The translations under genes and the position numbers were made by a program. From Isoetes taiwanensis (lineage: Eukaryota; Streptophyta; Lycopodiopsida; Isoetales; Isoetaceae), in NCBI GenBank assembly GCA_021234155.1, contig JAJEKV010000112.1, positions 2,286,282 to 2,350,281 of the forward strand: DNA of 64,000 nucleotides. The letters run 5' to 3'. The stretch's first letter is position 1. Each line of letters starts with the position of its first letter. The notes beneath the pieces are model-generated. The model had not been told where the DNA came from. It saw only the letters and a list, made by a program, of their open reading frames with translations, and did not search any database. Below, one piece after another: positions 9,803-62,195 of the stretch.

Positions 9803-12800
9803 CTAAGCAGCATCACCAGCGAGGGCTGCATATGCTTCAGCAACGGGCACTGGAATCTTGATAGTGTTGGGGAGCTTCTTCCTGTTCGATGGAGACCAAG
9901 CAAAGTCGATTGTCTCCAACTCAATGCGATCACTAGCAGTGGTTGGCCTCCATCTTTTCTTCCAACAGTTTACATAATTGGCCGGGTACACCTGGTTCCT
10001 TACGGGGACAGGCTCCCACCAAGTGATCTGTACTGTCTCAAAATTCTCCTTCTTATCATCCATTTGGGGCTCCTTCGTGGCATACCCTACCCATGTGGGA
10101 CACAACACGTCATCAGGATGTGCCATAATGAACATACCTTTTTTCATATCCTTGAATGGATTGAATTCTGGTATGGGTTTATCCTTCAATGGTCCCACGT
10201 ATGGAGGAGCGATGCTTGCAATTGGCTCTGGTACTGCAACCATTTCAGGAAGCTGAACTCCTTCTTGCCTGGTGCATGGCCAAAAGTCCTCATAACTGCC
10301 TTCCGGGCACGAAATCTTCCCTAGCTCCTGTAAAAGACCCATCCAATACTCAATGGTAGCCGTGAATTGTGCGGAATAGTTGGCTGTTTCCGGGGTGCCC
10401 TTCTTGCTTGTGGATATTGCAACCCAATGAAGGATGTGCTTTTGGATGCTGTTTCGCAACTGGCCAAGGTCCTTAACTGTTGCCTTTGGTTTAAGCAGCT
10501 TGGGTGTTCCTACAGGCATCATGGGCTTCCCGTCTTCCCCTTCCTTCCACATTTTTATACCGCATGTAGGCAGCCAATCCAGGAAGCACGGACGGGTTTT
10601 GTAATACATGACAGGCCACTCTCCATTCATTGCAAATTTGAATGTCAGGGGGGTGGTGTGGCCAGTCAATCTATCATCGCCGTCGGGTATGTACCCTTCT
10701 ATAAACCCCTTCCAATCTGGCACTTTATCAACAATGTATGGTACAGGTGCATTTAGATTGCATGTGTGGAACTCATATAATAATTCGGGCATGGTCAGCA
10801 CTTCGGCCTTCTTCAGAGTGGAGGAGAAGTTGCCAAACAAAGCATCAATGTCTTCATGTGTATGTCCATGTATCATGAAACCCAACTCTATCTCCTCGAA
10901 CACACCAAGATATACTAGGTATGAAAGATACGAGAAAACATACCTGTTTTATTTTGACCCGAAGCATTGTCCAGTTGCAGCAACAATGTTCGGGGGAGGG
11001 GCTTGAAAGAAGGTCCTTCTCGTCCAGGCAAGCTTGCAGGGATGTTGCTATTGGTGAGTGCCAATTTCGATTTGAGTGCCGCATTATTACGCAAGGAAGT
11101 CACCCAAGCTGGAGCTGATGTTTCTGGCATTGTAAGATGGCCTCCTGGATACTCATACCCCATCTCGAGCCTTCTCAATATGCTATTCAAAGAACCCACA
11201 TGAAAGTTCGAGTCGTCTGGCCATAGATCCAAAGCAAAGTTTCTATAGCTTCCTCTCCCATGACCATGAGTAAGAGCACCCGTCAATGATGTTTTGAGTT
11301 TATCCAGTCTCCAAAGTGACTTCACCGATTGCTGCAATTTTGGAATCATTGTCTTAGCCTGGTCCATCTTATCATGAATTATACAAACATAGTCTTTGGG
11401 ATGCCTATGGGACAATAATCTCCACGACCAATACTGGGTACGACAGGAGGCTTGCTCCAATCTGTGTGCTCTTCTCTGGTCATGCAATATCCGCCTTTCT
11501 GCCTCATCCTTTGTCTTCAACAGCTTCGTACGAATGACCTCGCATGTATCACATTTAGAGAACGGAAATTTTTTTTGCGATATTGACATCCATAAAGCTC
11601 ATTTTCCAAGTTCTATGAAACTTTGCTGGCGAGACTTTCTTGCATGTCAGTGCCATAACTTCTACATTCACCTCTTCTAGGATGCTTGTTTTTGTAAACA
11701 TTGCAGGCAACTTCATAATGTTTTCCCGGATGCCATCTTCATTCCTCCGACTACAGTGAGGCAAGGATTCGCAATTCTCCCTTACGAACAAGGAGAAAAC
11801 AGCCTCGGATGCTAAGGTGGATGCACGAGGCTTCAAACTACCACAGTTCCCGTGCTCTGCTTTGCGAGCACCCTCGATGTATTGTGCTTTCCATTTCAGA
11901 TAACCTGACTTTGAGATTCCGAGCCCAAGGTACCAGGCTCTCTTACAGACTAGCCTCCCATGCAACACCAAACGTTCCACTCGACGACCTTTCATGTTGT
12001 TCCCAAGCATGTCATACACAAATGTCACCCTGTCGCTAGACTTCATTGCATAGAACTCCTTGCGCATGTCGATGACCTGATTATGTGAGAACTTTGCACA
12101 ACACCTGTGTTTGCAACACAACGTCGTTCGATATTTCAAAACAGCCTCTCTAGAGCTAAGGCGTTCAATCTTCGGCTGTCTCGAGAACCGCCTATGTTGA
12201 CGGGAGTGGAAAGTGTACTTGCGCCTCTCGAAATTTGGATGCTTCTCAATAACAGAGCTGCCTTGACTTGACGGAATATCTGCTTGCTCGGTTGGCTTTG
12301 CAGTCAAGATCTCAGACACCTTTACACCATCCACTGTAACATATTCGTTACTCCACCTTACAAGCATACCTTCTTTTGGTACCTGTAAACAAGCCTGACA
12401 ACGGAAATTCACTTCAGCAGGAATCGGGTAACCCTCAACAATTGTCACTCCAATGCATTTCAATCCTAAGAACTGGTCGCATACTGCATCATCTGGGCCT
12501 GTAAAGGATATGAACCCCTTTCCCACAGGAATGGAGTCGCAAGAGTGCCATATTTCACAGTCCTTCTCCAGTAAAGTGTATCTGTTGTGGGGGATAGGTT
12601 CCATAGTAGATTCCACTCTGTTTTTTGGAGGTGGACCCGACATCCTCTACATTGGATTCACGGACGTCTTCCTCTCTCCAAAGAATGGAGGATCCTTTGG
12701 CTTCTCCTATAGTTTCTGCATCTGGAGTGGGCCATGGGAGGGCGTGACACTCCTCAAAAACCTCTTGAATGCCCACACTGACAGCTCCAGCGGGGATGGT

Positions 12801-12955
12801 TCGACTGAAATGGCACTGGTTAGAGTCTCCAGCGAATCCTTTGGCAATGGGATGACCATCCTTGAAGATGTACACTTCCTGCAGAAGAGAGTTGTCAGAA
12901 AATGGGGCCAGGTTATTGAGAGCAGAACATACTGCAACAGAATCAGCCTCCTGAA
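9803..12955 (-). pseudogene. DUF7869-type transposase-like gene of element B (disrupted)
   Basis: Reading leftward, pieces in successive frames encode one long protein alignable with the genes of elements A and C. It has a cysteine cluster (LCCKHRCC at about 12100), a CxxC near 11540, then HDKMDQAK..P, LQLDNASGQNK and GHTHEDIDALF. These three acidic motifs are typical of DUF7869 proteins and look like a DDE-type (RNase H fold) active site; that role is an inference. The C-terminal part has KGM....PTWVGYA....ITWWEPV and a basic/aromatic tail, stop near 9803. Frame changes occur at about 12640, 11570 (in an A8 run) and 10945. The first coding exon probably lies upstream of an acceptor at ~12955 and may have been displaced by element A. 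Confidence 0.8.
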
Positions 12956-12965
12956 TTGGGGCCTC

Positions 12966-13131
12966 AAATCGGACGGATGCCCAATTTGACCAATATTGGC
13001 CAGACATCCAATCAGGCCCGGGCCAGTTTATCAAATCCAAACGGGTCTGAAATTGGGCGGTCGCCCAAATTGGTTTTCAAACATCGCTGATGAGGCCACT
13101 GGAAAAAGTAAATTGGGCACCCGCCCAATTT
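12966..13131 (+). repeat. Element B palindromes, left group (three sites)
   Basis: Sites at 12966-12987 (degenerate), 13050-13071 and 13110-13131 have half-site AAATTGGGCG, a two-base spacer, and its reverse complement. They sit immediately upstream of the transposase-like gene. The last site ends exactly where element A is inserted. Confidence 0.9.
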
Positions 13132-13161
13132 AACAAGGTTTAAAATGAAACGCACTTATTT
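13132..13161 (+). repeat. Element A left terminal inverted repeat
   Basis: It begins AACAAGGTTTAAAATG and matches the reverse complement of 21702-21731 at 29 of 30 positions. Just inside, AAACGCACTT and AAGTGCGTTT form a subterminal hairpin. Confidence 0.9.
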
Positions 13162-14362
13162 AAGAAGTGCGTTTGAAAGATTCCTTTATAAAAATTGAAA
13201 ACTTGAAAAAAACACACAAAATAGGGAGCAAAATAGATTGTTGAGCAATTAGCATTCGGGATACCCCCAAAAAAGCGACATTTTTGAGGCCTTTTCATTT
13301 TTAAAAGAGGGCAAAGAAAAAAAATGCTTGTTTTGAGGAGAGAGACATTAATTTTGATAACTCGGTAAGTATTTATTGTTAAAAACAGAAGGAAATATAG
13401 ATTGTCTTTTTGCAAGCTTAATATAAGTACTAAGAAAGTCAAACATTGGAAAGACAAAGAGTGTGAAATCATGGAGCAAGAAAGAGTTGTTTCAAAGCAT
13501 TGTTAAAGAGACAAAGCTTTCAGTTTAAAAATCTTCATCAAGATAAATTATAATAATACTTAGCACATAGTTTACAATGGAAGTAGTGAAGAACTCTGTT
13601 TGTATAAATTTATACAAGAGGTGGCTCTTCCCAGTCCACAGGACTCTCGTACCCCTTAGGATCTGGCTCTTGCGAGCTTACAACAGCAGAGATGCCTCCT
13701 TCTGATTCCAAACCTACCAACACAGGTGGTTTCTCGGGCTCAGGCACCACAGGCTCCAAGTCGACAAACTCCACCTCCTCATCTTTTCTTCCTGTAAGTG
13801 GAGGCTGTATTTCTGTGTAAGTGCCCTTAACATCGCTGGCACCGTTCTTTGCTCCCAGTTCCTCGTTTTCATCAGGAAAGGATTCACAAGAGCTTATCCT
13901 GGTCCTGATGAAACTTACTTTATCTGGGTCTATGTCGACAGAGACGACATTGCGCCCCTGCTTAAGGGCGCAAACTGCTGTGGTGCCTGATCCAGAAAAG
14001 GCATCTAAGATCCAGTCTCCGTGTCGAAAACCATCAGATCAAATTATTAATAAGCGGCGTGGGTTTCGATAATGGGACACCACAGCGCCTTTGTCGCTGT
14101 GGGTCTCTTTAATTTCGCAGGCAATTTGAACCGAAATGCATTGCATGGAGGAGTCTTCTCATTCTCAAGGTTTGAAATGAATCATGGTCTTTTGGTGTCC
14201 GCTACCAAAAAACCTATATAAAAATGCTCAAAACAACTCACTAAGCGGACCACCACCATGACCCTTAACGCTTGTTTTAAGCCCGCCAAGCAATATAACA
14301 ATTAAAAAAATTAGTAGAAAGAAAACAAGGAAAATAAGTTACCCCAAAGAGTGTGGCGGTAT

Positions 14363-14515
14363 AAACTTATACCACGGTTGCCTTGTCAGATAAATTTATA
14401 CCACGGCGCAAAGAAGTCAGATAAATTTATACGACATTGCCTTGTCAGATAAATTTATACCACGGTTGTTCCAGCCTTTAAAATTTAAACCTTAAGACAG
14501 ATGTGGTATAAATTT
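14363..14515 (+). repeat. Palindrome array in methyltransferase intron (element A)
   Basis: Six TATAAATTTATA-type sites (two degenerate) have centres spaced 29, 31, 28, 30 and 29 bp apart. They fall in the intron between the motif IV and motif I exons. Confidence 0.92.
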
Positions 14516-15576
14516 ATACCGTAAAGTTACCGTAAAAAAAGCGTTAAATGTAAAGCTTACCAAACGCAGTTCTCGAAGCCGGCGTTACAGACCGCTCCCA
14601 TTGGTTTAAGCACCGACATCGTCTGTAGGTCGGAACGAAAAATGATGACCCTCTAGTTTTCAGATGTCGTGACTTCTTTTAGGCCATCCAAAAAAGACCG
14701 GACTTGCACGTGAGTGAAAGCCTCCTCGTCAAAAGCGCTATCCTTTATTTTGAATCCATAAGGAATGTCTGCAATGCATAATGTAAAATTTTTCTTGTCT
14801 AAAAGAGTCCCCAACCTTGTACAGTCACCCTGAACAACCCTGTACTGGACGTCCTGATCAAATGTAGTAAATCTCTCATAAATAGTGTCAAAACTGGAAG
14901 TGGCGACCTCTTTACCCTGTTCAATTGCCTTAAGCCTTTGCCTCTCCTCCTTGGCCCTACGAACCAGGTTTAAAAATCCAGTTGGTAGCCCCTTCTTCTT
15001 GTTCTGTAAGAATTATGTGAGACAAATTCACAAACACAGAACATATTTTTTGCAACACTTACCCAACCACTGAAGTTAACAACGTGCTCTCTGATGATAC
15101 TATCTGTGGTGCAACTTGGGTACAAAAGCTTGCACTCCTCCCAGTCCTCTAGGTTTAGCTGCTTCATTAACTCGGCCTGGCAGGTGACAATGTCTTTTTG
15201 ACTGCAAAGGGGAAAATATTGTAAGACAAAAAAGGAAGAAAAAAACACGGCATAGCAAGTGAGGCTTACGTCTTAGCTTCCTTGGCCATCTCGTCTAATG
15301 TGAATTCTTTGGCAACTACTTTTTCCAACAGGCGAACAAATATTTCTTTGCTTTTGAGACCCTGTAACTGCATCCAGGGTACAATGCTCATATTTTTTTG
15401 TTTTGATTCACCACCTTTTTTTTGGTTTCTTTCCTGCGTTGCTAGCTTGTTCTTTAAGCTCACCATCTTCAAACATACAAAAAATTCTCTCTTGAAGATC
15501 CCACACCTGTAAATGGTCAAACGAAGTTTAGTGTTGAATGGTGTAAGAGAATGGGCACGGCGACTCAGCACGGTAT

Positions 15577-15753
15577 AAATTTATACAGGGCGGCCAAGCA
15601 GTATAAATTTATACTCAAGATCGGCAGCCAAAGATAAATTTATACCGCACCGCCACGAGATAAATTTATACCAAGGATTGGAGACGGTATAAATTTATAT
15701 CATGACCGCCACGGTGATAAATTTATACCACGTCCGGCACCTGTGATAAATTT
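15577..15753 (+). repeat. Palindrome array in methyltransferase intron 3 (element A)
   Basis: Seven sites are spaced 28, 31, 26, 29, 28 and 29 bp. All lie in the intron between exons 3 and 4 (15829-15507); neighbouring exons contain none. Confidence 0.93.
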
Positions 15754-16811
15754 ATACCGTCACCAAGATATTACACACTTCTAACCACGCTAACAAACTA
15801 CAAAAGATTGAATTAAAGCTTTTACTTACTTGACCATCTCTGAAAGCGAGCTGAAAATAGTTATCGTATTGTTTGACAGCCATAATGGGTTTCTTATCCG
15901 AATCATAATCGAGGCAAAGACTGTCACACAAAGCTCAAGCTCTTGAAGCTTGTTCTTTTGTTTTTTGAAGTCCTCTCCATGCAGTTGTTTGAAATCCACG
16001 TACTCTCGGTGCATGAAGCGAATCTTGTCTATTAGGCTCATTTTTAGTCTGAAGTCATTGTCGAGATTGTGACTCACGGCAATGACTTTTGCCTCTTCGT
16101 CTGTTACGCCCACGTAAATATGCGCTTCCACGCTTTTCCACACTTCGTTACGGCTTTCTTCCTTTGATAGTTCTTTTCTTGCCTTGTAACTGTGTGTGCC
16201 TCCAAGGACATAATATGTGTAATCTTCGAAGTCTGCCTTTTTGTAATCCTTTAATTGGTTGCACTGACTTCTATCAACCATCACAACTAGTGGCGACACA
16301 TGCGCATGAGGATTCCTTCTCATTCTTTGCTTAAGGATAGCCACATGTGTCGCGTACAACTTCCGGACCTGAAGCACTCTGACCCCATCTTCATTTTTTG
16401 GTAGCCTCTTAATAGTGCTCAGTGTCAAAGAAATGGTCTGCTTGAGGAGTTTGATTTCATTTACGTGCTTTAGGATGGCACTTGACTTGTCTGAGGGCCG
16501 CACAACAATATCAGCTCCAGGAGCCTTTTGTAGAGCTTCTGCTGACTCATCTACAGTCAAGGCTTTTGTGGTTCTTTTCTTTTTGGTAGGAGGCTGTGTA
16601 TCTACTACCAGGGAATGCTTCCTACCCTTTCCCTTTTGCACCACTGGTTCCTCCTCTTCTTCCTCTTCTGGTTCTGAAGCCTCGTCCCTTTCGACATCTT
16701 CTTGAGGACGTGGGTACCAGAGACCCTTTACCAATTCTTTTTCTTCACAAAGTATTACTGAGCCGAGAATGTCCACTATGTCCTGTAATACAGGGTAAAT
16801 TAGAAAGATGA

Positions 16812-16827
16812 CGGTATAAATTTATAC
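16812..16827 (+). repeat. Single palindrome in intron 2 (element A)
   Basis: One GGTATAAATTTATACG site lies in the short intron (16851-16783). Confidence 0.9.
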
Positions 16828-17459
16828 GCAAAGCCACTAAGACAGACGTACATAGCCATTCTTGTAATTCTCCGCAATGTAATCATGGATGTCCTTAGGT
16901 CTGCACATGCTTATGCGCAGCATTCTACTGTTCAGAACATAAAAAACTTCACCTTTGTCATGATTGCACTTCATCAAAATCTCATCTTCATTTCCTGTTG
17001 CAGTCAGTGTTATCATTTCCCCAGCGGGGTAATAATCATCTTTGGTAAATTTTCCCCTCCCTGACTGGTGACACAAATACAGGTATGCCTCTGTGGGTTT
17101 GCGCTCTCTCGCCCCCTCGCACGCATTAACGCCCCAGTCCGACAATTCATATGTTTGTGGCTCTGGTGGTGCCGCCTTTGATGACTGGCCTCTCTGTGTG
17201 AACTTGATCTTTGGGCTGATAAGGGGCAAAAAAAACCATTTTTACACCAAAAATGCAGTTTTTCGCCTATGTTTTGGACACTTTAACTGTACGAAAACTA
17301 GCTTAAAGGACCTAAAATGCACGCTATTTTAACCTTTTATTTGTGTCATTTGACCTTTAAAACTCAACATTAATGCTCAACTACAAAGGTTCGTAAAAAA
17401 TTTTTTAGACACTTTCGACACTTTACGAGAATAGAAGCCACAACGTTGTCTTAGTAGAT

Positions 17460-17737
17460 AAATTTATACCGAAAAGTGTTCGAACGGTATAAATTTAAAC
17501 GCCGAAAGAAAGAAGCGGTATAAATTTATACCGTTGCGAGAACACTTTCGCGGTATAAATTTATACGCCGAAAGACGAATCCGTATATACCGTTAGTGAA
17601 TCCAGATAAATTTATACCGCTCGTGCTCGAGGCGTATAAATTTATACCGCGAGTGTTCTGCAACGGTATAAATTTATACCGCTCTTGCTCGAGGCGTATA
17701 AATTTATACCGTTCCAGAACACTTTCGGTATAAATTT
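17460..17737 (+). repeat. Main palindrome array in intron 1 (element A)
   Basis: Ten sites (one degenerate, near 17587) are spaced 31, 31, 35, ~30, 21, 30, 32, 30 and 32 bp. The best match is GGTATAAATTTATACC. The linkers differ in sequence, so the phasing is not that of a simple tandem repeat. Confidence 0.93.
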
Positions 17738-17813
17738 ATACGGAAGACCCTTAGACTCAACAGATTAAAAAAGACGAAACTAGAATAGTACTAATAGAGA
17801 CTTACGTGGTCAT

Positions 17814-18540
17814 GGTCGTATGGATTCGCTTTTATAGCTGTTCTGAGAAGCAATTTGGAGGGGGTATATAAGCGGCAGCTCGAGCGGCCTTCACTCCTAG
17901 CGGTATGTAGAAAATAGAGTGACCGGGTGCCGGGCTTAAGTACCTCTAAGTGCCGCTTTAGAGATAGCCCCATAAAGTTTTCAATACAAGTGTCCGTGGA
18001 GTTTTCGTGATAAATTTATACCGCTTTTCGCTCTATGTTGCCTCCTCCGTATAAATTTATACCATCTCTCAGATAAATTTATACAGTCTTCCGCTTCAAG
18101 TTTGCCTTCTCTCAGATAAATTTATACCATCCCTGTGGTAAACTTTTACCGTCACCCTTCAATCGTGATAAATTTATACAAGCAGACGCTAAGCTTCGAA
18201 AGTATGGCTCGAGAAAAAGAACCGCAGCCTCCAACTCCTGTTCTCGCAGCTTCCTCCTCGCAATGACATTCACACCTCCTCAACGACACACCGTGAAGTA
18301 GCCTCAAAAATTCTCGGGCCCGATATTCAAACCCCCAAATGTTGAGTTTACTCCAAAGACGACCACGCCGGGCTTCCACCACCAGTTTTTTTTACTCCAC
18401 CACACCCCGCCCCCGAACGCCGCTTTGCCCCCACCAATGCGTTTTTACTCCACCACGCTAGAGAGGTCGACTACCTACTCCACTTCATTTCAGTACGTCG
18501 CCCATAGTCCACCGTAGGCTAAATCCCCGGAGGCAAATCA
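17814..18540. promoter_or_regulatory. Divergent promoter region of element A
   Basis: This gap separates the start of the leftward methyltransferase gene (ATG at 17813) from the rightward transposase-like gene. On the minus strand CTTATATACC (about 17866-17875) is suitably placed as a TATA box for the start at 17813; CTATAAAAG (about 17829-17838) lies too close. It includes the palindrome group at 18012-18175. Confidence 0.55.
18012..18175 (+). repeat. Palindrome group in the divergent promoter (element A)
   Basis: Six sites, one of them degenerate (GGTAAACTTTTACC), are spaced 41, 22, 43, 22 and 30 bp, less regular than the intronic arrays. They end before the transposase-like gene, and none is found to its right. 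Confidence 0.9.
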
Positions 18541-21321
18541 CGCCAACTCCATCCATTTCACTAAATGATACTACAAGTGGGAGCAGTCAGCGACACGCAA
18601 CTCTTGTGTTCTACGACACTTCAGGAGCTGGTCAACTACGTCACCAACCTCGACTACTTTTTCCCAGAGATAGGGAAAGCACCTCCCCCCAGGACTTGCC
18701 CACACCAAACCTCTCAGCATCTACAAGTACACCTCATGTTGATCTCTTAGACGAAGAAACACCTCATGTTGATCTCTCAGACGAGGACCTACCAAAGCCA
18801 CAAGACTCCATGTTCGAATTCAAAGCCCCTGCAAGTAAGAATCTTAAGCGTAACTTACACAAGAAAGCATGTACAACCGTTAGAAGAAAGAAACTTATCG
18901 ACGAGGCTCACTTGAGGGCAATACATACAAAGCACTGTTGTTCTCAACGTTGTATGCTTAAGATTGGACTAAAGGAATTGAGGTTGATTCGTGATAGTTA
19001 CAGTTCAATGACTCTGCTAGACCAAAGGGGCTACTTAGCCTTCAATATTAGGCCAGATTATGGTGAGAAGTTTACTTACACAGCTGGTGGCCACACCGTC
19101 TGTCAAACGGCCTTCAAATTGATTCATGCTTTAGGCAGCAGACGACTTGACCGCCTGAAGAAAAGGCTTGACAAGAATCCAGGCATCAATGACTACTGCC
19201 ATTCAGGAGGCATATCCAGAATTCATGCCCTTCAATGTGTTTCCTGGATGGAAGGTTTCTTTAAGGAGTCTTGTGAGAAACTCCCTAACAGCCCTATGTA
19301 CCACTTGAGTGACAATTTCACGAAACAAGAAGTCTACGATAATTATAAGGAGATGTGTGTTGAGGCTGGAGAACGCCATGTCTGCTACTCTTACTTTCAT
19401 CAGACTGAAAAAAGAGTTTTCTCAAGTCCATTCCTAGAAAGCATAGGATGTCTGTTTGTGCTACATGCTCTGAATTAAAAGCTCAGAGACAAAATGCAAG
19501 GACACTTCACACTAAAAGTAAGCTTCCAGGACGTGTTCTTGCCTAGTTCTACTTAAAAGTAGGTTCTTTCCTAAACATGTTTTCATTTCAGATGCATTGA
19601 AAGAGAAACTGAACAAGCACAGAGAACAACAATCCTTAGAAAGGAGAAAATTGACAAAACATAGGAAGAAAGCACTGGAGCAACCACTCAACTACATACC
19701 GGTTGTTATTGATGGAATGTACCAGAAGAAGACCACCCTACCACATTTTGTCAATGTGCCTAAGGATGCTGCTGAAGAAGATTTCATACACCTGCATGTT
19801 GTTGGTGCTATGGTATTTAATGGAAAACTATCTTGCAAGGCATTTTTGAACTATCCAAACATTCATGCTGATCCAAATCTGACTATCACAATATTGAATA
19901 AGCTTCTTTCCAATCTAGAACATATACCACCGGTTCTGTATCTTCAGCTAGACAACACGACAAGAGAAAATAAGAATCAGGCGTTGTTTGCTTACTGTGC
20001 TATGCTAGTTGAGAAACAAATCTTCAAGAAGGTGAAGATTGGTTTCCTGCTTATTGGTCATACACACGATCAAATTGATCAGATGTTCAGTAGGTTCTCT
20101 AAACGTCTTGCTCAAAAAAAAGCGCTCAGCCTACCAGCAATGATTGAGGTTATCCAAGATTCCTACAATCCTCGTCCAGACATCGAGTTATTAGAAGAAA
20201 CTTATGATTTCAAGGAATGGATTTTTCGGAGAGATCAACTGGGTCACTGTGCTATTGAGCCCTTGAGAAACATTACATTTCAGCATCAGATCAAAATTTC
20301 ACTTGTAGATGACAAGGCGATCTTACAAGGAAAGAAATATGCCACATCCTTGCAAAGGCAATAGCCAGCAGTTGTATTCAATTCATTCGGACCATCCCCA
20401 ATACTAGTTCCATGCTCTCTGCAGAGCAAATGCCTCTAAAAAGCTTGAAAGAAATCACAAAGAGTAAAAAGGAGGGAAGAGCATTTGACTTAAACAAATC
20501 ATTGGATTTGATTCAGACAAGTATTCAGTCGTGCTCTAACCACTTTGGGGAGGCAGATGCTTTATGGTGGCCTCAGTTTTTTTCTCGGCAACGTGACATG
20601 TTGCAAGCTTCATTACAAGGTCGAAGACCAGTTACATTCAATTGGCCATCTAGGCAAACTCTCCCTGTGCAAGTTGAGAATCAAGAGGAACATGTAGAGA
20701 TATTGGCTAGCTCAGATGAAGATGACAGAGTCATGTACACTGGCCCCAGATGCACAGCACAACAAGTTGCTCGAGTATCTGGTTCAGTCTCAGAGATTCA
20801 GAAAGGAATGCTCATAGCTGTCCCAGCTAATAATGATGAATCTGGGAAGCCATTCTGGCTAGCTAAAGTACTGGAGGTAACAAGAGAGGATGGAATTCCC
20901 ACTCAATTAAAAGTGCACTGGATGAGAACAAATGCTGCCAGTGCTTTTAGTGGGAGTTATACTTTGGAGATGGTAAAAACAGGAGTGGGAAAGAGAGCAA
21001 AGTCCAAAGCAAGCACTGCTGTCATAGATCTAGCTGAAGTAAAGGTTCTTGCATATGACTTTGTTCTCGACTGGCCGCTAATAAGTGACGATGGTCACTC
21101 AAACTTTAATAAGGCTCCAAGCATGTGGATTAGACAAACAACCTAGAAAGGTGGCCAAAAAAGATGATGATGAGGACTCACTTGTAGACAGTGAGGAAGA
21201 AGATCGTACATCCAGTTTTGAGAGTGAAGCTGAGCATGAAGGCTCAAGTGATCAGGGATTAAATGAGTCGGAGGATGAGATGCATCCTGATCTTGCTGCA
21301 AAATGTAAGTTTGTCCGATGA
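18540..21321 (+). pseudogene. DUF7869-type transposase-like gene of element A
   Basis: The first long exon encodes a disordered acidic N-terminus, then HCCSQRCMLK and a helical region. Joined across an intron at ~19517-19591 (GTAAGC..TTTCAG), it continues with VVIDGMYQKKTTLPHF, LYLQLDNTTRENKNQ and IGHTHDQIDQMFSRFSKRL, the classic DUF7869 signature and a plausible DDE-type active site. The last third contains IQKGMLIAV and PFWLAKVLEV..LKVHWM, which may be an SH3-like (tudor or BAH-like) chromatin module; that is a guess. It ends in an acidic tail. Frame changes occur at ~19407 (an A6 run), ~20340 and ~21130. The start is uncertain because the frame is open upstream of 18606 without an ATG. Confidence 0.82.
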
Positions 21322-21701
21322 CTCGAACATGTAAAGAACATAAAGTGCAGGTGATGATTGTCTGTCAAAATGTCCTATATTTTTGACAATTTTGTTCATA
21401 ATTTTGTACAATTTTCACAACCTTGAATATATCACTTCTTTGTCACTCTACTACCCTTGCTATTTTTTTTATTGCCCCTTTTTTGCCACACTTTATATAA
21501 GTAACTATTTTTTGTTCTAAATTAGGAGGATAAAAAATGCTGTTTAAAATTTTTGCATGGAAGTTATGTTCAATCAACCCCTCAAAAAAGGTACCTAAAT
21601 TAACTAAATTGTCACACCTGTCACAAAAAAATCTTAAAAATGGATTTTTAAGGGAATTTTAGGGAATCTTTCAAAGATTCCTTTTGAAGTGCGTTTCCAG
21701 C
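21322..21701 (+). other. 3' region of element A
   Basis: AT-rich sequence lies between the end of the transposase-like gene and the right terminal repeat, with no ORF and no palindromes. Near its end GAATCTTTCAAAGATTCC is a perfect subterminal palindrome, partly shared with the left end. Confidence 0.6.
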
Positions 21702-21731
21702 AAATAAGTGCGTTTCATTTTAAACTTTGTT
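21702..21731 (-). repeat. Element A right terminal inverted repeat
   Basis: Read on the minus strand it begins AACAAAGTTTAAAATG and differs from the left end at one position. It is followed by ATTT, matching the four bases before the left end. Confidence 0.9.
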
Positions 21732-21778
21732 ATTTACTTGACGCAAATGTACACTGGCCAAAGCACACTGGCCACAGT

Positions 21779-21800
21779 AAATTGGGCGCTCGCCCAATTT
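21779..21800 (+). repeat. Element B palindrome, right of the A insertion
   Basis: A site with half-site AAATTGGGCG lies 48 bp beyond the right end of A. It shows that B sequence resumes here. A degenerate half-site (AAACTGGGCGCC) follows near 21889. Confidence 0.9.
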
Positions 21801-23362: not shown

Positions 23363-23449
23363 CTATTCTATCTTCCTCTTCATTCTGGGTCTGTCCTGCA
23401 GTTACTGCAATAATGAACTGTTTTTCCTTCTAATCCCTCTCTATTCTTT

Positions 23450-23910
23450 CCTTCTAATACTCCTAATCAACTATTTGAGCAGATCATGTGCCACCTTGAT
23501 AGTCGAACCACCTAAACTTACTTCCCTCTGTAAAATGGGCGCCCACTCTATTTTTCTGATAATCACTGCTTTCAGCAGGTAATGTGCCTGATAGTCGATC
23601 CACCTAACCTTGCGTCCCTCAGTAAAATGGGCGCCCGCCCTATTTTTCTGTGAATCGCAGCTTTCAACAGGTGCTTTGCTAGAAAGTCGAAGACCTCACC
23701 TTCCTTCCCGCTCTGTAAATTGGGCGCCCACCCCATTTGACTGTTAATCACAGCTCTGAGCGGGTCACGAGCTTGTGAGGCTAGTGGCCAGTCCAGGACC
23801 TGGGAAATTGGGCGGACGCCCAATTTCACAATGACATGCCTCTCCCCTAGCGCCCCCGTCAACCATTCCACTTTACTTCAAGACAACTATATTGGGCGGG
23901 CGCCCAATTT
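23450..23910 (+). repeat. ~90-bp tandem repeat carrying element B palindromes
   Basis: Five palindromes begin at about 23532, 23624, 23717, 23805 and 23889, i.e. every 84-93 bp. The flanking text also repeats (AATCAC..CTTTCA.CAGGT). The array ends ~150 bp before the ATG of the H3-tail protein, placing it in the promoter or 5' leader. The first two copies have AAAATGGGCGCCC arms, the last two the full half-site. Confidence 0.9.
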
Positions 23911-24056
23911 ATCTCAGAATTGTATGCCTAGGGGTATCCAGGATTTCTTGGACATCTTCCGCCCCCTTTGTTTACTATAATACTGTCGGTCAACTTGTAC
24001 TTCATGGTACTTTGGGTAAGCAGTACTTAATTCTTGTTTGATGCAATGCAGGAGTA

Positions 24057-24083
24057 ATGGCAAGGACAAAACAGACTGCCCGC
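24057..24083 (+). other. Exact histone H3 N-terminal tail (first nine codons)
   Basis: The codons read M-A-R-T-K-Q-T-A-R, identical to the start of histone H3 including Arg2, Thr3, Lys4 and Arg8. The next residue is Leu, where H3 has Lys9, and similarity stops. Removal of Met before Ala would expose the same free N-terminus as H3. The rest of the protein is not a histone. Confidence 0.95.
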
Positions 24084-25714
24084 TTGCCCGGCTATGGACC
24101 TGGGATTCCGCAGGTTGTTGCTGCTGCGAAAGGGACAGAACAGGATGTGACATTTCAAGGGATTGAAGTAGTTCTGGAGGAAATCACTTCTGTTGCTGAC
24201 AAATACACGTGGTGCATTGAAATTGGAAACGTAAATCCTAAGTCGAGCACGAACCATCTCAAGGATTTATGTTTATATTTTGTCGTGCCAGGGACAAAAA
24301 AGACAAGCAATGCTGGGATAGCAATTGATATGCTGGTAAGCGCAGAGGTACCCGGCGAGATAGAGGTTTATGTGGAAGACGTATTGGACAAGTCCTTCCG
24401 TGCATACAAGCTACCACTTGCCACTTATGACCCCCAACTCATGTCAGCAAGCATTACCAAAAATCAAAACTCCTGCGCCGCAAAGGGTTGGCAGCTCAAC
24501 TCATACGAGAGCTTGGAAAGATCTGGGATTAGGAAGCGTGGAGATGTTATAGATGGCTTCTACATAGTCAGGCAGTGGATTCTTGATCACAAGCAGACTA
24601 GGTCGAAGGGCTTGTATACAGAATATCATGGGAAGGCCCAGCCAAAAGTGTACGATACGGCCTGGTTGAGGTCTCGATATGGAGTTGCCAAAAGGGGAGA
24701 AGCAAAATGCAGAGAAGTCTAAGAATGTAGTAGTTGACAAAGGCACTGCTGCAAAGAAGAAGAGATCATCTTTGACAACAAACCCCAGCATTGAGACGCC
24801 AGTTGTGATGCTTGGAGGTATGGAAAAGAGACCAAGAACCTCTGATCCGAGCAATAGTGCCGGAGAATCTTCTGAACGAGAACCTGATCTTCAGTTGAGC
24901 AAGAAACAAAGAGCAGAAGAACAAGTAGACACCTCCTCTAAGAAATGAAGACGTCCCACTCCGCCTCAGACTCCATCTGGGACAAGCGAGGATAGTGAAA
25001 TGCCCAGCGATAGCGAAGAAGTGGGATCATTGCCAATTGTACAGTATACAGCCTCTACTGGGGAGTTAACACAGGAAAGTAGGCATGAATTATCTCAGAG
25101 CGCCATGTTGAACATCAAGCATAGGGAGAGGATTTATCCACTTGGTGTTGGGTTCGAAAATGACGCCAACATATTCAAGATGCATCAAGCCCCTGCAAAT
25201 ATGACTTGCAAGGTCATCAGTGCAGAACACGTGGATACCCTTTACGAATCTTTCATAACTATGCAAATGCATCCTCCTTGTGCAGATGTTGTTCCATTTG
25301 ACCCGTCGACAGGGCGTGCTATGAAATGGAAGAGAGCAAGTGATTTGGACAATGCGGAATTCTGGATCGTCAATGGAAATCACACTACAGTCGTTGCTCA
25401 AATCCTTGTGAACCAGGCTTTGGAATGGCCCCCAGAAAGGAAGCATTTAAAAGATTTGATATTTTTCTTTTATGCCAAGAGAAAGTGTCGTGTACTGGCT
25501 GGAAACCTAACTCCAACGGAATATGTTAAGGTCAGCCAGGAAACAAATGATATCATAGTCAAGACAATTCACGCAGTTGTCTTTTTCGAGGAGGTCCAGC
25601 AACTTCGCAATCAGTGGGAACTGTATGGCAAGCCCAAAAAAGGAAAGCGTGGTCAATCAACCGAAGGCGCTTACTCTGTAAGTTATCTCCCCATTAACCT
25701 GTCCCATGCAATCC

Positions 25715-25800
25715 AAATCGGGCGCCCGCCCAATTTCACCCAGGCATTATTCTTCCAAGCTCTCTCCATGCTCACTCCAAATAGGGCGGGCGCCCAATTT
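25715..25800 (+). repeat. Two element B palindromes within an intron
   Basis: Sites at 25715-25736 and 25779-25800 lie inside the 207-bp intron 25678-25884 (GTAAGT..TTGCAG). The intron happens to be open in frame. Confidence 0.92.
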
Positions 25801-26948
25801 CATACCCTTAATGACTGTCCATATTGTAGTTTCATCCAATTCTTGTGTCGTCTCAACTTGTCTTATAGTATCTTTTGTTTGCAGGAATGGCTAGCTATAG
25901 CAAAACAGACCCTGAAGAATAAGAGCATGCGGGACTATGATTACTTCGTCTATCTTGACGAAGAAACTTGGAATATGTGCACCCGTGTCGCTCAACTTTT
26001 TTACAAGGATGAGCTGAAGGATGAGAATGGCGACAGAATTGAAGTCAAAGATCGTCTAAGGATGTTCACAAACTGAAGTCTATGCACCCCATGGACTTGC
26101 AGAGATTAATGAGGGAGATCATGGCAGGCACCACGTTCATCAAGGCCACGAAGGCTTATAAAGAAAGACGTGTCATGAAGACAAGAGCGCAAGAATTAAG
26201 GAAAATTGGCATTGTTGAGCGTGCAATACTGAAATATTTAAGAGAGGTGAAGAAGTTAAAAGTCGAAAATATGGATGAAGTCAGACAGTTTCATCCCATA
26301 TTCACAGAGAACCTCATGCCAATGTTTGCAAACAGTGTCAGTGATTGGACAGAGAGTCGGAAAGAAGCTGAGAAGGAAAATCTTCCAGAGACTCTAATTA
26401 CAAAAGTTAACGAATACCTCCGTGGACCAGTTGAAGAGGGTTCAAAGGCTTTCAAATGCCTGACTGTCAGTCCACTGGAGATGTGTGTTAATGTCGTGAA
26501 TACGTCAGCACGTTTAGTTGGATGTGACTTTAGGAACCTTAAGAAATGGTCAGTAGAGGAGTATCAGAAATTCATGGATCAGATTAGTATCCTAACGGAC
26601 TAGCAGTTATACTGGATAACGATATTCATCAGCCAAGAGCATTTGAATGAGTGCTTGGCAGCAATGAAAACAATAGATGGTGGTAGTCGGGTGTGGATTG
26701 GAGCCTACCAGGATCCAAAAGCAAAGTCAGGATCCAAAAACAAAGTTCGTGAGCTTCAGAGTCTAGTCCTTGTCATGTACGTGGCCCGAGACCAAGCGGC
26801 AGCTCCTGCACTGGATGACTTGAATCTATGCTTTATAGACAGTGACCATCCACAAATGCATTCGAAATTTCCCCAGCATCTTAAAGAGGCAGAGGACATC
26901 GAGAAGAACTTGCCAGACATGGAGTGCTCCGCATGTAATATTCTTTCA

Positions 26949-26970
26949 AATAGGGCGGTCGCCCAATTTA
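26949..26970 (+). repeat. Element B palindrome within an intron
   Basis: One site with arms AAATAGGGCG and CGCCCAATTT lies in the intron that ends at the acceptor TTTCTGTTTCAG (~27004). Confidence 0.9.
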
Positions 26971-27830
26971 TGTGTTGCTTTTGCTGAAATAGTTTCTGTT
27001 TCAGCGTATTGGTTGTATCGTCCTTCCACAAACTAATGATGGAGGGTTGGAGCGTTCTTGATTTCTTTTCTGGAGGTTCATTCAGTCCTGCAGCACTATG
27101 CGAAGGATACAAAGCAACTTCCTTCAAGGCGGACGAGAACCTGCAGCTGAAGCTAGTACAGATCTTCGATCAACTAGAAATAATGTTGGATGAAAAGAAA
27201 TCAATGGCCCACCGGAGGCAGAAAATTGCAGAGGGCAAGAAGAAGAAATCTGGTTCCAAGCCTGTACAGTTACAAATCAATCCCCTGTCAGCAAATCCAT
27301 TCTCTGCTCAGAAAGTTCAAGAACTGCAGTCCACGGTCTGCCTGAGTAAGGAATCCCTTGCAGAGCAAATAAAGAAGGCTGCAGGAATAGGAAGTAAGGA
27401 TCTTTCCATCTTCCGAATGAAAAAAGATAGAATTAATATGTTGGCAGGTACCCAAGTGGTGAACACTCAGGATGTCATTGAGGGTAGCTCGAAATTCAAT
27501 GAGATAGTGGACAACGATCGTGAGGAATCCTTCGTCAAGGACACACCTCAAAGTCAACAGGACGAGGAGCCAGATAAAGCGCTAGATGATGAGGAAGAAC
27601 AAAGGGAGGTAGGCAATACAGGTGTCGAGAAGGAGACCGGTCAGGTAGAGACAGTTGAGGGAGGGGCAGGTGAAGAAGGTGGCACGCTGAGCAATGAAGA
27701 ATTCATTAACAGGATGGAAGATATAAAGCAAGCTGCCCAGCAAACAACAAGATCAACATACTGACGTTGACAACACTGAAGAGAACCCCCCAGACCCGTG
27801 AACAGAGGTTGCAGCTTAGGAGAGTTGCTG

Positions 27831-28089
27831 AAATTGGGCGGGCGCCCAATTTCAGCAGTCACATCTGTCGAATCAATATTATATCGTGTAATTTTGTATC
27901 TAAGATCAAATTTAAATCTTGTATCTTGTAATCTTGAAATTATCAAATACAAACTTTTCTTGTGATGCTGTTCATTCTATTGGATTTAATTTGTTGTATT
28001 GTCATTGAACGTCTGACATAATTGGGCGGGCGCCCAATTTCTCTTCGCTAGAAGAGTTCTCGCATAGAAATTGGGCGTGCGCCCAATTT
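27831..28089 (+). repeat. Three element B palindromes downstream of the H3-tail gene
   Basis: Sites at 27831-27852, 28019-28040 and 28068-28089 lie between the end of the large gene and the first accessory gene. Confidence 0.92.
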
Positions 28090-28256
28090 GAACCCTGACA
28101 TGAAGTCAAGTAGAAGTGCAGAAGAAGTGGAGGTCGAGAACCACGATTTTACAAAGTACTCAGGTTCGATACATGAAATAAAATTCACTAAGCTTATACA
28201 TCCTTACATATTTCAGAATTGCTTATATCATTATATCCTTATTACAGGGACACAAG

Positions 28257-28523
28257 TCACTCAACATCAACACTTGCTGAGGTGATGGCATTCAGCTCAT
28301 AGATCTCATGATCCGGATGCCAGATAAGGTGGATCACAACATGACTGAGCTCCAGGCAACGAATCTCAGGACCACGAGCTTTGGATTCCAGCCAGGGATC
28401 AAGCTTGACCCCCATTCTCAAGGATTCATCCAGATCACGGTAGCTCATGGAGCACCTAATGCTTTCGGATGTGCTCCGGACGAGGAGGCAAGGAAGCCAT
28501 GCGATATGAATGACCCTTACCAT
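28257..28523 (-). CDS. Small element-linked protein, family 'LDPWL', copy 1
   Basis: This ~88-residue frame contains MSYRDLDESLRMGVKLDPWL and, after a variable segment, HVVIHLIWHPDHEIYELNA. The conserved part is a MSYxDL helix, GxxLDPWL, then a hydrophobic VVIHLxWxPDxEIYEL strand. It pairs closely with the gene at 55765 (~70% identical in the core). The N-terminus is uncertain: ATG 28523 gives the longest form, but a one-base difference from the 55.8-kb copy shifts the frame upstream of the inner ATG at 28448. A CTATAAAAG TATA box lies just upstream. No known family is recognised. Confidence 0.6.
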   Translation of the reverse strand: MVRVIHIAWLPCLLVRSTSESIRCSMSYRDLDESLRMGVKLDPWLESKARGPEIRCLELSHVVIHLIWHPDHEIYELNAITSASVDVE

Positions 28524-28640
28524 CGACTAGAGCTGCTTTTATAGTGAAGTAAAATTATTGGTGTAGATTGTACCGCCATTATTGAGCGTGTACAAGTGTC
28601 ATGTACAATTATCATGTATAGTTATCATGTACACGTACGA
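28524..28640 (-). promoter_or_regulatory. Promoter of small-protein copy 1
   Basis: Read leftward, this sequence parallels 55570-55685: GTACA-rich repeats, AATAATGGCG, CAATCTACACCAATAATT, TTTTACTTCACTATAAAAG. Conservation across two elements points to a functional promoter with a TATA box. Confidence 0.7.
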
Positions 28641-28641
28641 G

Positions 28642-28744
28642 AAATTGGGCGGCCGCCCATTTTCAAGCGGAGCGAGTTACTTCGGTTTTTTGATGACAAT
28701 TTGGAATAAAGCATTCCAACGGAAATTGGGCGCCCGCCCAATTT
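28642..28744 (+). repeat. Two element B palindromes between accessory genes
   Basis: Sites at 28642-28663 and 28723-28744 flank the upstream region of small-protein copy 1. Confidence 0.92.
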
Positions 28745-28839
28745 CAGCGCCAGCAACGGATATCAATATTGTTTCACAGGAGTCATATACAAGTTAGACT
28801 AATAGTTTATCTGATTACAACAAGATGACAAGTAATGAT

Positions 28840-29088
28840 CTAGGGGGACTCTTCTGAGTCATTCTCACCAGCCACCCCAGTGATCTTTTCTATCATGTAC
28901 ATTTGATGCTCTCTATTCCATATCAGATGGATGATAACATCGAAGGGATCAGGATAATGGCGAGGATTGAGAGCGACAGTGGTCATCCAATCTTCCATGG
29001 CTATTTCTCGCTCGCGGCACTGCTTGAAGTTTTCGTGATTCATCTTGCAGGTAATGGAATCACGTTCAGGACCAGAATGAGACCACAT
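28840..29088 (-). CDS. Small element-linked protein, copy 2 (divergent)
   Basis: The 82-residue frame from ATG 29088 contains MNHENFKQCREREIAMEDWM and DVIIHLIWNREHQMYMIEKI. It aligns along its length with the other small proteins but LDPWL has become MEDWM. A TATA box (GGGTATAAATATATATG on the minus strand, ~29130-29147) suits this start rather than an upstream ATG at 29130. It diverges from copy 3. Function unknown. Confidence 0.6.
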   Translation of the reverse strand: MWSHSGPERDSITCKMNHENFKQCREREIAMEDWMTTVALNPRHYPDPFDVIIHLIWNREHQMYMIEKITGVAGENDSEESP

Positions 29089-29291
29089 GGCTACACGAAG
29101 GCCAAATTTGATGGACAAATTTGGTTTCATATATATTTATACCCACCAAAATTATTGACGGTATTGTACACAACAATTATTGGATATACATACTGCTCGT
29201 ATGTACACCCAATAATGTTGCTACAGTGGTCATCAATAATTCCATGGCTATAAATATAGCCGCATTCGAGTGCACAGCACATTCATTTGCT
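29089..29291. promoter_or_regulatory. Shared divergent promoter of small-protein copies 2 and 3
   Basis: Two outward-facing TATA boxes lie near the ends: GGTATAAATATATATG leftward and GCTATAAATATAGCC rightward (~29250). Between them AATTATTGACGGTATTGTAC and GTACACCCAATAATGTTG are imperfect mirror copies, suggesting an inverted duplication of one promoter. Confidence 0.65.
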
Positions 29292-29537
29292 ATGTCTTGC
29301 CGTCCTACTAGAGCTCTTCAGAGGTCGAATCTTGATACCCTCACTTGCCTTATGACTTTCGACGATCTTCATGCATGCCATGTCAAAGGGATCACCCTTG
29401 ATCCCTGGCTGCATGGGGTAGCTACTGGTCGAAAGAAAGACTCCCCCGGCGAGTACCATGTTACTATCCATATTGTTTGGGTTCCGGAGCGCGAGGCTTA
29501 TGAGATTGACAAAATCACCAATAAATACAATCTATGA
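29292..29537 (+). CDS. Small element-linked protein, copy 3
   Basis: The 81-residue frame starts MSCRPTRALQ about 40 bp after a TATA box. It contains MTFDDLHACHVKGITLDPWL and YHVTIHIVWVPEREAYEIDK, the family signature. It is intact, with ATG and stop. The fold looks like a small alpha/beta domain. It could be a regulatory or DNA-binding accessory factor, but no function can be assigned. Confidence 0.7.
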   Translation: MSCRPTRALQRSNLDTLTCLMTFDDLHACHVKGITLDPWLHGVATGRKKDSPGEYHVTIHIVWVPEREAYEIDKITNKYNL

Positions 29538-29691
29538 GTCATGTATTTAATGAGTTCATAAGAATTTATTATTGATATGACTGTATTATGTAGCATTCAC
29601 ATGTGATTTTATAGTGTTCAATTACTTTTATTTGTGTTGGATGAATTATATTTGTGACAGTCTGTATTTCTATATTCTCGCAACTCTAACG

Positions 29692-29780
29692 AAATAGGGT
29701 GGGCGCCTAATTTCCTTTGGAGGCATCTAGGAAACTTTGTTCAGACGAATACCAGGGCAAATTGGGCGGGCGCCCAATTT
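29692..29780 (+). repeat. Rightmost element B palindromes
   Basis: Sites at 29692-29713 (arms AAATAGGGTG and CGCCTAATTT) and 29759-29780 (perfect arms) are the last ones seen. They give a minimum right limit for element B. Confidence 0.9.
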
Positions 29781-51661: not shown

Positions 51662-51707
51662 TAAGGAATCCGATGGTTCTGTGGCACAAACAAAACTACA
51701 TCTCTTC

Positions 51708-54610: not shown

Positions 54611-54611
54611 C

Positions 54612-59500: not shown

Positions 59501-59691
59501 TACCGATAGCTTCCCCTAGCTTCTCCAATTCCGGTTCTGGAAACGGAAGTGGTATCTGTCCATCAAACACAACCACAACAGAAACTAATCAAATCCTCCG
59601 GCACAGGAACATTGTGGTGGTGCATGAAGTTGTGCACTCTGCCTTCTGCCACTTTCTTCCCCAACAGGTAGAATGACTGTAAAGCTTCCAT
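56571..59691 (-). pseudogene. DUF7869-type transposase-like gene of element C (disrupted)
   Basis: The start is probably ATG 59691 (MEALQSFYLLGKKVAEGR). The order matches B: PLPFPEPELEKLGEAIGSF, LCCMKRCCANF, FSKCNT, HDKMDQNKTMVPRL, LYLQLDNCSGQNKN, GHTHDDIDALFGNYS, then KKGMLL..PTWMAFAEE..VSWFEPV and a C-terminus ending DDDENS (stop 56571). Motifs of the presumed active site are kept, so loss of function came from later lesions: frame changes near 59590 and 58325, TGA at 58000 where B has TGG, and TAG at ~57271. Identity to B is clearly higher than to A, grouping B and C. Confidence 0.82.
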
Positions 59692-59723
59692 CCTACAAAA
59701 CAGGTCAGATTTTGCTCGTCAAC

Positions 59724-59991
59724 ATCGCGATCGCGATCCTCTGGACACATTGGCAGAAAAATATATGAATACGTCATCAGCTCTAACTAAAGTCTTCACC
59801 AGCTCTAACTAAAATCTTCATCAGCTCTCACTAAAGTATTTATGGCCCACTCAAATATTATTTTACTCTAGGATTTCAGGACAGAATACCTCCACAAGAT
59901 CGCAGTCGCGATTATTTCGAGCGAGCAGATTTGGAACGTGTACCTGACGTTGCGTCAAACGAAAATAACTCAGCAGGATCACAGTCACGAT
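59724..59991 (+). repeat. Element C palindromes in the divergent promoter
   Basis: ATCGCGATCGCGAT (59724-59737), ATCGCAGTCGCGAT (59899-59912) and ATCACAGTCACGAT (59978-59991) lie between the two gene starts. Later copies show C-to-T or G-to-A changes at CpG, as expected of methylated sites. Confidence 0.75.
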
Positions 59992-60390
59992 TTCTTCAGG
60001 CGAGCCTACCAAGATCATCACACCTTCAAATGAAAGGAAATGGTGCATTGAAATTGCACAAGCAATTCCTCAAACTAAAGGTGACAGAAGAAAAGACCTG
60101 TGCTTGTTCCTCCGGACTGGCAAGAAAGTTGAGGACGTACAACAGATAGGGATAGTGATTGCTATGTGGGAGGGCACAAAAAACAATGTGCAGGACGCCA
60201 TTATATGCAGCGTGGAGGATACACAGCAATTGCAGTTCCTGGAGTACGTTTTGCAATGGAGGAACTACGACCCCTCAATGACGACGGCTAGCAAGTTGAA
60301 CAAACCGGCAACAGGGAAAAATGTCCCAACTAGTGCAAAAGGATATGGCTGGGAGCTGCAGTCGTATGAATCTTTGTTTCTATCCGGAAT

Positions 60391-61070
60391 AAAGGAAGGA
60401 AGGAAGGAAGGAAAAATTTTTAACGTCCACGGAACCCAATCGGGTTATGGGACCAAGTACATAAGGGACCGAAGTCCTGGACCGAAGTCCAAACAAGAAC
60501 ATGGGCCGAAGCCCTTAAACCAAAGCACAACGTGAGCTAGAACACAACCGTCATGACCCGGATTAAAAACCACCTGGGAAAAAACCGTTGCCAGGATGAC
60601 TATGGCTGCTCACCGATCCAAAAATCCATGCTGTTGCACAAGCAACAAGCATACCTTCATACCTCCAGCAGGCAAAGCTTCACCAAGCAACTCCAAACCG
60701 TAACCTCTTCACAACTGGGTGCTGGAAAACAGACGCCCCCAACGCCAATCGCCCAGACACGCAGGGAAGGCGGCGCTCAGAAAAACCGCTCAGGGAAATC
60801 GCCCATCGGAGGTGCCTCCTCACCCATCCACCAGCCCTGCGCCAAGGCGCCAGCACCCCCAGGTATGCGCGCAGGCGGACATCCACTCAGGCACACACAG
60901 GGGTGCCATCCTTCACTGCCGCTGCTCCAACGCCATCCATCATTGCATCCGCTCGGGCAGGCCTCAGGCAGCGCCTCAGGCAGGCGCCAGGCGCCAGGCG
61001 GAGAGGCAACGGAGGAGGACTCAAAGGGAAACAGGGATATGCTGCCAGGTTTCTCGGCATGCAGGAAAGG
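60391..61070 (-). mobile_element. LINE fragment inserted in the element C gene
   Basis: On the minus strand the 3' end reads GTACTTGGTCCCATAACCCG..CCGTGGACG and ends in a (CTTC)n tract (60393-60415), matching the 3' end of the LINE at 23285-23354 apart from the tail repeat. GC-rich sequence to ~61070 is the body. It splits a conserved exon after LFLSGIK. Confidence 0.7.
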
Positions 61071-62181: not shown

Positions 62182-62195
62182 CATCGCGGCCGCGA
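62182..62195 (+). repeat. Element C palindrome within an intron
   Basis: ATCGCGGCCGCGAT lies inside the 64-bp intron 62157-62220, repeating the intronic placement seen in A and B. Confidence 0.85.

Follow-up and report, generated by a model that had tools for sequence, protein, structure and literature searches.

A DNA transposon in the genome of Isoetes taiwanensis encodes a protein that apparently begins with the first eight residues of the mature histone H3 tail, and in copies that have kept their reading frame this short segment is under strong purifying selection. The transposon, called element B here, is a two-gene element that consists of the H3-tail gene and a divergent partner gene encoding a DUF7869 protein, which is a putative transposase. 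The copy through which it came to light is broken, with a nested sister element inside, and lies in a stretch of 64,000 nucleotides (contig JAJEKV010000112.1 of assembly GCA_021234155.1, positions 2,286,282 to 2,350,281, forward strand) that is referred to as the window. The features of the window are collected in Table 1.

Table 1. Features of elements A, B, and C, in window coordinates
Positions	Strand	Feature	Basis
9803..13040	-	Element B divergent partner gene, in pieces; DUF7869 1.3e-18 (9806-10903) and 1.4e-09 (10918-11589)	
12966..13131		Three B palindromes, 5′ side of the DUF7869 gene	
13131..21732		Sister DNA transposon A, nested in B; 31-bp terminal inverted repeats (97%) at 13131-13161 and 21702-21732; probable target duplication ATTT	duplication by eye
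13601..18180		26 sites of the A palindrome GGTATAAATTTATACC at up to 3 mismatches; all apparently in non-coding DNA of A	
13616..17241	-	Element A ParB-like/DNA methyltransferase gene, PF01555 7.6e-09, with DIPY and DAFSGSGTT (catalytic-type motifs)	
18606..21146	+	Element A DUF7869 gene (2e-53), divergent from the A methyltransferase gene	
21779..21800		B palindrome just right of nested element A	
23532..23910		Five B palindromes 5′ of the ATG: 23532, 23624, 23717, 23805, 23889	
24039..24056	+	In-frame TGA 24039-24041; probable 3′ splice acceptor GCAG 24048-24051; 5-nt exon leader GAGTA	acceptor by eye
24057..24083	+	H3(1-8) tail codons, Met removal assumed; Leu (hydrophobic) at the K9 position	sequence, copies, selection test
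24057..27764	+	Second gene of element B, with about three exons; product comprises an H3-tail N-domain, a ParB-like segment, a helical region, and a methyltransferase-like C-terminus; copy broken, with the first frame closing at 24722	
25678..25884	+	Intron of the H3-tail gene, with two B palindromes (25715, 25779)	ends by eye
26948..29780		B palindromes in intron and 3′ DNA: 26948, 27831, 28019, 28068, 28642, 28723, 29692, 29759	
57271..63774		Element C: DUF7869 gene (-) divergent from a ParB-like/methyltransferase-like gene (+); layout as in A	

The forward strand at 24057-24083 reads ATG GCA AGG ACA AAA CAG ACT GCC CGC, which translates as MARTKQTAR and continues as LPGYGPGIPQ. All eight residues after the Met (8/8) are identical to H3(1-8), and a six-frame check found no other instance of ARTKQ in the window. 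An earlier note on this DNA had described a transposon gene whose product matches the H3 tail exactly and ceases to match at the K9 position. The window sequence bears out the match, its end point, and its location in a transposon gene, and the extent proves larger than that note had it. The identity to the H3 tail goes beyond chance, as a chance origin of MARTKQTAR is ruled out by the genome pattern counts with their reversed control, by the constraint on the codons, and by the GTDB and viral scans described below. An amplified or degenerate H3 gene was likewise rejected as the source of the element B start, as nothing H3-like is found past residue 9.

The 221-residue first frame of the element B gene was used to search the 1,658,258,908 bases (1.66 Gb) of the genome. 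This search returned at least 153 matches, a number that is a lower bound because 150 of the 1849 candidates were scored. We analyzed 108 of the 153, the window copy included, and left out the other 45; because this set favored matches that reach the N-terminus, copies without one are under-represented in it. With the frame anchored on the match, exact MARTKQTAR is present in 58 of the 108 copies. The others carry near variants (MARTKSTAR, MARIKQTAR, MARIKKTAR, MARSKETAR, or MARTRQTAR) or frame breaks in or near the tail. An ATG followed by at least 195 open codons is retained by 43 of the 108 copies, and the exact tail by 33 of these 43. In 41 of the 43 the residue that follows the tail is V, M, L, A, or I, and in none (0/43) is it K. 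Several related copies (L020, L045, L046, L054, L056, L090, L103-L105, and L108) appear by eye to have small indels in or just after the tail codons.

Selection on the tail was assessed with all 43 long-open copies, using the 614 pairs that are less than 75% identical. At codons 2-9, pS is 0.91 and pN is 0.083, for a ratio of 0.091, and silent sites are saturated between diverged copies. Beyond the tail, the same pairs give pN values of 0.42 at codons 10-17, 0.43 at codons 18-34, and 0.27 further on. Given how low pN is at codons 2-9 compared with their neighbors, the tail is a sharply bounded stretch of strong purifying selection in frame-keeping copies. When eight-codon windows are ranked by pN, codons 2-9 come second of 195, behind the overlapping codons 1-8, which are favored by the ATG requirement. 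Each residue is well retained among the 43 copies (A1 in 43, R2 in 41, T3 in 41, K4 in 42, Q5 in 38, T6 in 41, A7 in 40, and R8 in 38), and the residues after the tail are V in 27, then P in 34 and G in 40. By column entropy the tail is 12th of 196 windows in these copies. It is 127th of 189 windows in 60 copies chosen as open over codons 30-195 with no N-terminus condition, a rank that is depressed because frame breaks near the N-terminus spoil the columns. The earlier note had reckoned with the possibility that no other copy shares this N-terminus and had raised purifying selection on the nine codons; the N-terminus is shared, and the selection is found.

These data bear directly on the idea that the start of an H3 coding sequence, or of a retroelement gene with an H3 tail, was captured passively and now has no function. 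Sequences with an H3 start are so abundant in this genome that a fusion capturing one would be easy. However, passive capture is disfavored by the constraint on the tail codons, with a pN/pS of 0.09 between diverged copies, and we consider it extremely improbable.

The abundance of H3 starts was established with a degenerate DNA pattern for M-A-(R/S)-T-K-Q-T-A-(R/S), with the reversed pattern as control. The 1.66-Gb genome contains 1888 matches to the pattern and 0 to the control. The tail is followed by an H3 continuation (AAR-WSN) in 25 of the 1888, which rules out amplified or degenerate H3 genes as the explanation for most of the matches. The H3 start is therefore encoded in this genome far more often without an H3 continuation (1863 of 1888, element B copies included) than in H3-like sequences. 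We read 20 sites, comprising one H3 gene as a control and 19 codon variants from the first 100 listed. None of the 19 non-control sites is H3, and different proteins follow the same nine residues, with residue 9 being K at 16 sites, V at 2, and I at 1. Several further N-terminal families are seen behind MARTKQTAR in L109-L127, for example ...KVSKDDKPSAQVLAAEQKL, ...KYNERPTLSMAQAAAGRHVKK, ...KYRLGEQPSAQDRRRIQQ, and ...VPRGDTTASAQIQEML. GGCGCC occurs within 40 nt 5′ of the ATG in 9 of the 19 sites and is perhaps a primer binding site. That the same genome holds many other proteins with an H3 tail besides that of element B is relevant to the question of capture versus convergence.

Perhaps the peptide is kept for another reason, such as N-terminal acetylation or stability, nuclear localization, or DNA contact, and matches H3 through convergence, with no mimicry involved. 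Short basic protein N-termini are common, and a tail of this kind can be bound by DNA. However, this explanation must contend with eight exact residues in register with the start of H3, each of them constrained, and with 1888 genome matches among which all 19 of the non-H3-like sites read place different proteins behind the same nine residues. We therefore regard it as very unlikely.

Three further tail loci were read in part, and two of them (L130 and L143, not L129) include an H3 fold; no histone fold was found in the 6.5 kb of L129. At L130 (C35:285900-292400), one strand carries a MARTKQTARKPRR frame and part of an H3 histone fold (Pfam Histone 2.5e-13; best PDB H3 chain 4.4e-15), together with matches to gag (PF03732, 8.9e-04) and reverse transcriptase (RVT_1, 3.6e-06) that are both below cut-off. 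No LTRs were recognized at L130, where the frames are interrupted; at this one locus the tail, H3 fold, gag, and reverse transcriptase likely belong to one element. A relative with identical first 66 residues has a 435-codon open frame. The end of this frame, L143 (C1048:12957255-12957644), holds an apparently complete H3-like core that ends ARHIKGERP and is in frame with the ATG by coordinates. A search with those 66 residues gave at least 150 matches when 150 of the 1150 candidates were scored, and open frames of more than 400 codons are present in dozens of them. L130 and L143 thus seem to represent an elongated H3 beside or within retroelement sequence, made up of a MARTKQTARK tail, a long insertion, and an H3 fold.

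Outside this genome, the pattern was found at 10 loci in the GTDB contig collection (257 Gb), of which 7 read MARTKQTARKS and three (L133, L134, and L137) do not. On the bacterial-labelled metagenome contigs L134 and L137, the sequences are MARTKQTARKPSPT and MARTKQTARKIVPM, with K9 present and S10 absent. The viral contig collection yielded 0 matches to the tail pattern.

For the element B protein to present its tail as H3 does, translation must begin at the ATG of MARTKQTAR. An in-frame TGA lies six codons 5′ of this ATG, and the earlier note had taken it to confirm the start. This argument does not carry, because a probable 3′ splice acceptor sits between the TGA and the ATG; splicing of the leader is thus probable, as is an intronic position for the upstream stop. 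Most copies have the probable AG acceptor 5 nt 5′ of the ATG, and one subfamily (L022, L024, L026, and relatives) has it at 8 nt; a few copies (e.g., L012 and L033) lack it. The two distances are 2 mod 3, as might be expected if MARTKQTAR were internal, with an upstream coding exon spliced to this acceptor and the peptide serving another role. Several observations speak against this arrangement. Identity to H3 sets in precisely at the start of the histone, and the short leader that separates the acceptor from the ATG shows free variation among subfamilies (GAGTA, CACCC, GAATT, GCACT). Furthermore, conservation of the Met equals that of the tail itself, with 83% of the 60 copies not selected for the N-terminus retaining it, compared with 73-88% for residues 2-9. 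No coding block common to the subfamilies was recognized 5′ of the ATG in at least part of a 14-copy upstream comparison, which revealed mainly palindromes and ATG-flanking bases. An internal location for the peptide is distinctly unlikely in our estimation, and the element B protein would have a free N-terminal Ala like that of H3, with some doubt about the start.

In related copies, the H3-tail gene has about three exons. Its product starts with the tail, which a variable linker joins to a conserved N-domain; a charged linker then leads to a ParB-like segment, followed by a helical region and an end that is methyltransferase-like. Across 14 first-exon rows and the later-exon reads, no Pfam family scored above cut-off; NUP210 Ig-like appeared in 4 of the 14 first-exon rows, with a best value of 0.0023 that is below cut-off. 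Comparison of the first exon with solved structures gave nothing significant, and no homologues were found at E<=0.001 among 7995 scored candidates from a set of 5.8 billion proteins. The methyltransferase-like end matches phrog_3008 (5.5e-04) and, below cut-off, PF01555 (0.24). A profile search for the ParB N-domain gave phrog_723 at 0.015 for element A and no match for element B, and the profiles of A and B match each other at E 0.088. The earlier description of the gene as ParB/methyltransferase-like therefore survives in the form of marginal profile matches, with the ParB-like label being weak for the element B protein. Its catalytic motif (motif IV) looks degenerate or lost, since by eye DHPQ occupies the supposed site of the [DNS]PP[YFW] catalytic motif of DNA N6/N4 methyltransferases in 5 of the 6 B copies read over that part (the window copy, L010, L013, L018, and L019); the frame of the sixth, L021, is broken there.

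In the window, the partner gene is split from the H3-tail gene by nested element A. The 5′ part of the partner gene also lies, in divergent orientation, upstream of two more copies from different subfamilies, where piece 11558-12643 is matched at 71% (L131) and 72% (L132). L132 has a second match to this piece at 43% and one to piece 10918-11589 at 70%. This comparison covers the 5′ part, the DUF7869 domain being mostly beyond the stretch fetched. Terminal inverted repeats of element B were not found between 8000-9850 and 27760-31500, nor were those of element C between 54500-57300 and 62500-64000. A DUF7869 partner gene is common to all three window elements. Elsewhere in the window, an open frame at 51681-52826 resembles, by eye, a microbial-type terpene synthase.

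Element B carries a palindrome, AAATTGGGCGGGCGCCCAATTT, that is iterated in its own non-coding DNA. When up to 6 mismatches are allowed, the window has 20 sites, of which 19 are in the element B stretches 12966-13131 and 21779-29780; the twentieth, at 33678 with 6 mismatches, is outside them. Three mononucleotide shuffles of the window gave 0 sites on average. The 108 copies (up to 4 mismatches) have 500 palindromes in 79.6 kb of upstream DNA and 93 in the 55 kb beyond codon 500. Their first 1500 coding bases have 6 in 139 kb, and 5 of these 6 are in L028, whose frame runs through intron-like sequence. An L018 intron (oriented positions approximately 2648-3320) holds ten exact palindromes about 72 bp apart, forming a tandem array as VANC target repeats do. 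The palindromes of A and B differ clearly, and 26 of the 27 window sites of GGTATAAATTTATACC are within element A (three shuffles gave 0, 0, and 1). A possible third palindrome, ATCGCGATCGCGAT, at 59724, 59899, and 62183 in element C (shuffles 0, 2, and 1), is a weak and only suggestive candidate for that element.

The density of palindromes in the non-coding DNA of element B points to a protein that acts on the element itself. This weighs against the possibility that the tail is a real H3 mimic acting elsewhere, either as a soluble decoy or as a bait that steers a transposase or integration complex to particular chromatin (e.g., H3K4-methylated or newly assembled). The constraint on the tail is compatible with every way of using H3-tail partners, and the presence of an H3 fold at L130 and L143, in the other class of H3-tailed genes, directs attention to chromatin or histone chaperones in general. 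We consider action away from the element unlikely on the whole.

We instead propose that the element B protein is a DNA-binding, VANC-like, sequence-specific anti-silencing factor that works by histone mimicry, a reading that we hold to be evenly poised between right and wrong. The H3-tail gene would be the regulatory or DNA-binding gene of the element, and its protein, or the ParB-like part thereof, might bind the B palindrome; the binder could alternatively be the DUF7869 protein or a host factor. Because the presumed binding sites are iterated in the upstream DNA and introns of the element, many copies of the protein would line up there. With Met removed (Ala being the second residue), each would display a free ARTKQTAR end. 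This end could engage host readers and modifiers of the H3 tip as far as K4 or R8, while offering no K9 to be methylated. Perhaps the resulting local concentration of fake, K9-less tails recruits or diverts host factors such that the element escapes silencing.

Candidate partners for an H3 tail include H3K4 enzymes such as writers, WDR5-type proteins, PHD proteins, and LSD1-type proteins, to which VIM/UHRF1-type proteins can be added. UHRF1 is described as acting on the H3-mimic domain of PAF15, and the Arabidopsis VIMs, VIM6 excepted, as retaining an N-terminal PHD domain (PMC8594673). The loss of K9 from the element B tail while R2, T3, K4, T6, and R8 are kept would fit partners that read the H3 tip and not the K9 mark. 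The nearly letter-for-letter retention of the tip suggests a use in dealing with the plant silencing machinery. More tentatively, and with somewhat more doubt than belief, we speculate that mobile elements of two unrelated kinds in one plant lineage, namely retroelements with an elongated H3 and a DNA transposon with DUF7869, have turned the H3 N-terminus on host chromatin. The sequence-specific protein of the DNA transposon would coat its own palindromes and build a patch of K9-less fake tails that blocks or diverts silencing.

Bacterial and phage proteins that join ParB and DNA methyltransferase domains, and the ParB-parS system, are natural comparisons, being similar to element B in domain order and in the presence of palindromic sites in the element's own DNA. 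They differ in that the element B domain matches are marginal and its catalytic motif looks lost (DHPQ, by eye). With DUF7869 proteins (PF25273), the likeness is the domain itself, which is present in the partner genes of A, B, and C and whose transposase role is putative. Influenza NS1 and G9a are examples of histone mimics. Another is the H3-mimic domain of PAF15, on which UHRF1 acts and which, like the element B tail, is a short linear copy of an H3 N-terminal segment in another protein (PMC8594673). In contrast to such mimics, the element B match is exact for residues 1-8, lies at an apparent N-terminus, lacks K9, and is carried by a transposon with its own iterated DNA sites. DNA viruses that encode histones are also parasitic DNA with histone sequence, as described in PMC9145170 and PMC11500106, but element B has the tail only, and the L130/L143 class has an H3 fold and resides in repeats of a plant-like genome.

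Among the top matches in the open-licence literature searched, no report of a transposon-encoded H3 tail was found. Histone mimicry and viral histone genes are already known; what appears to be new is that a DNA transposon carries, on a protein of its own, an H3 N-terminus that is both exact and under selection. If our proposal is true, histone mimicry would extend from pathogens and host proteins to transposons. Furthermore, the natural tail variants (e.g., S5, K5, R4, and I3) would provide a set for mapping what the host machinery reads.

The closest functional parallel is with the VANC proteins of Arabidopsis VANDAL transposons, whose short binding motifs have built up as tandem repeats in the introns and upstream DNA of their own elements (PMC5735166). 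Both systems feature an element-encoded protein family and short motifs iterated in introns and upstream DNA, with the motifs differing among related families (PMC5735166, PMC10398659). However, the element B palindrome is 16-22 bp and the VANC motif nine bases. Further differences are the DUF7869 partner, the terminal inverted repeats seen on sister element A, and the H3 tail, a feature unmentioned for VANC in the passages of PMC5735166 consulted. Homology to VANC proteins was not found by Pfam profile, no family being above cut-off in the B gene (14 first-exon rows and later-exon reads). How anti-silencing follows from VANC binding is described as an open question (PMC5735166). An exact, selected H3 tail on a VANC-like protein would offer a directly testable mechanism for this step, in which an element escapes plant silencing after its protein has bound.
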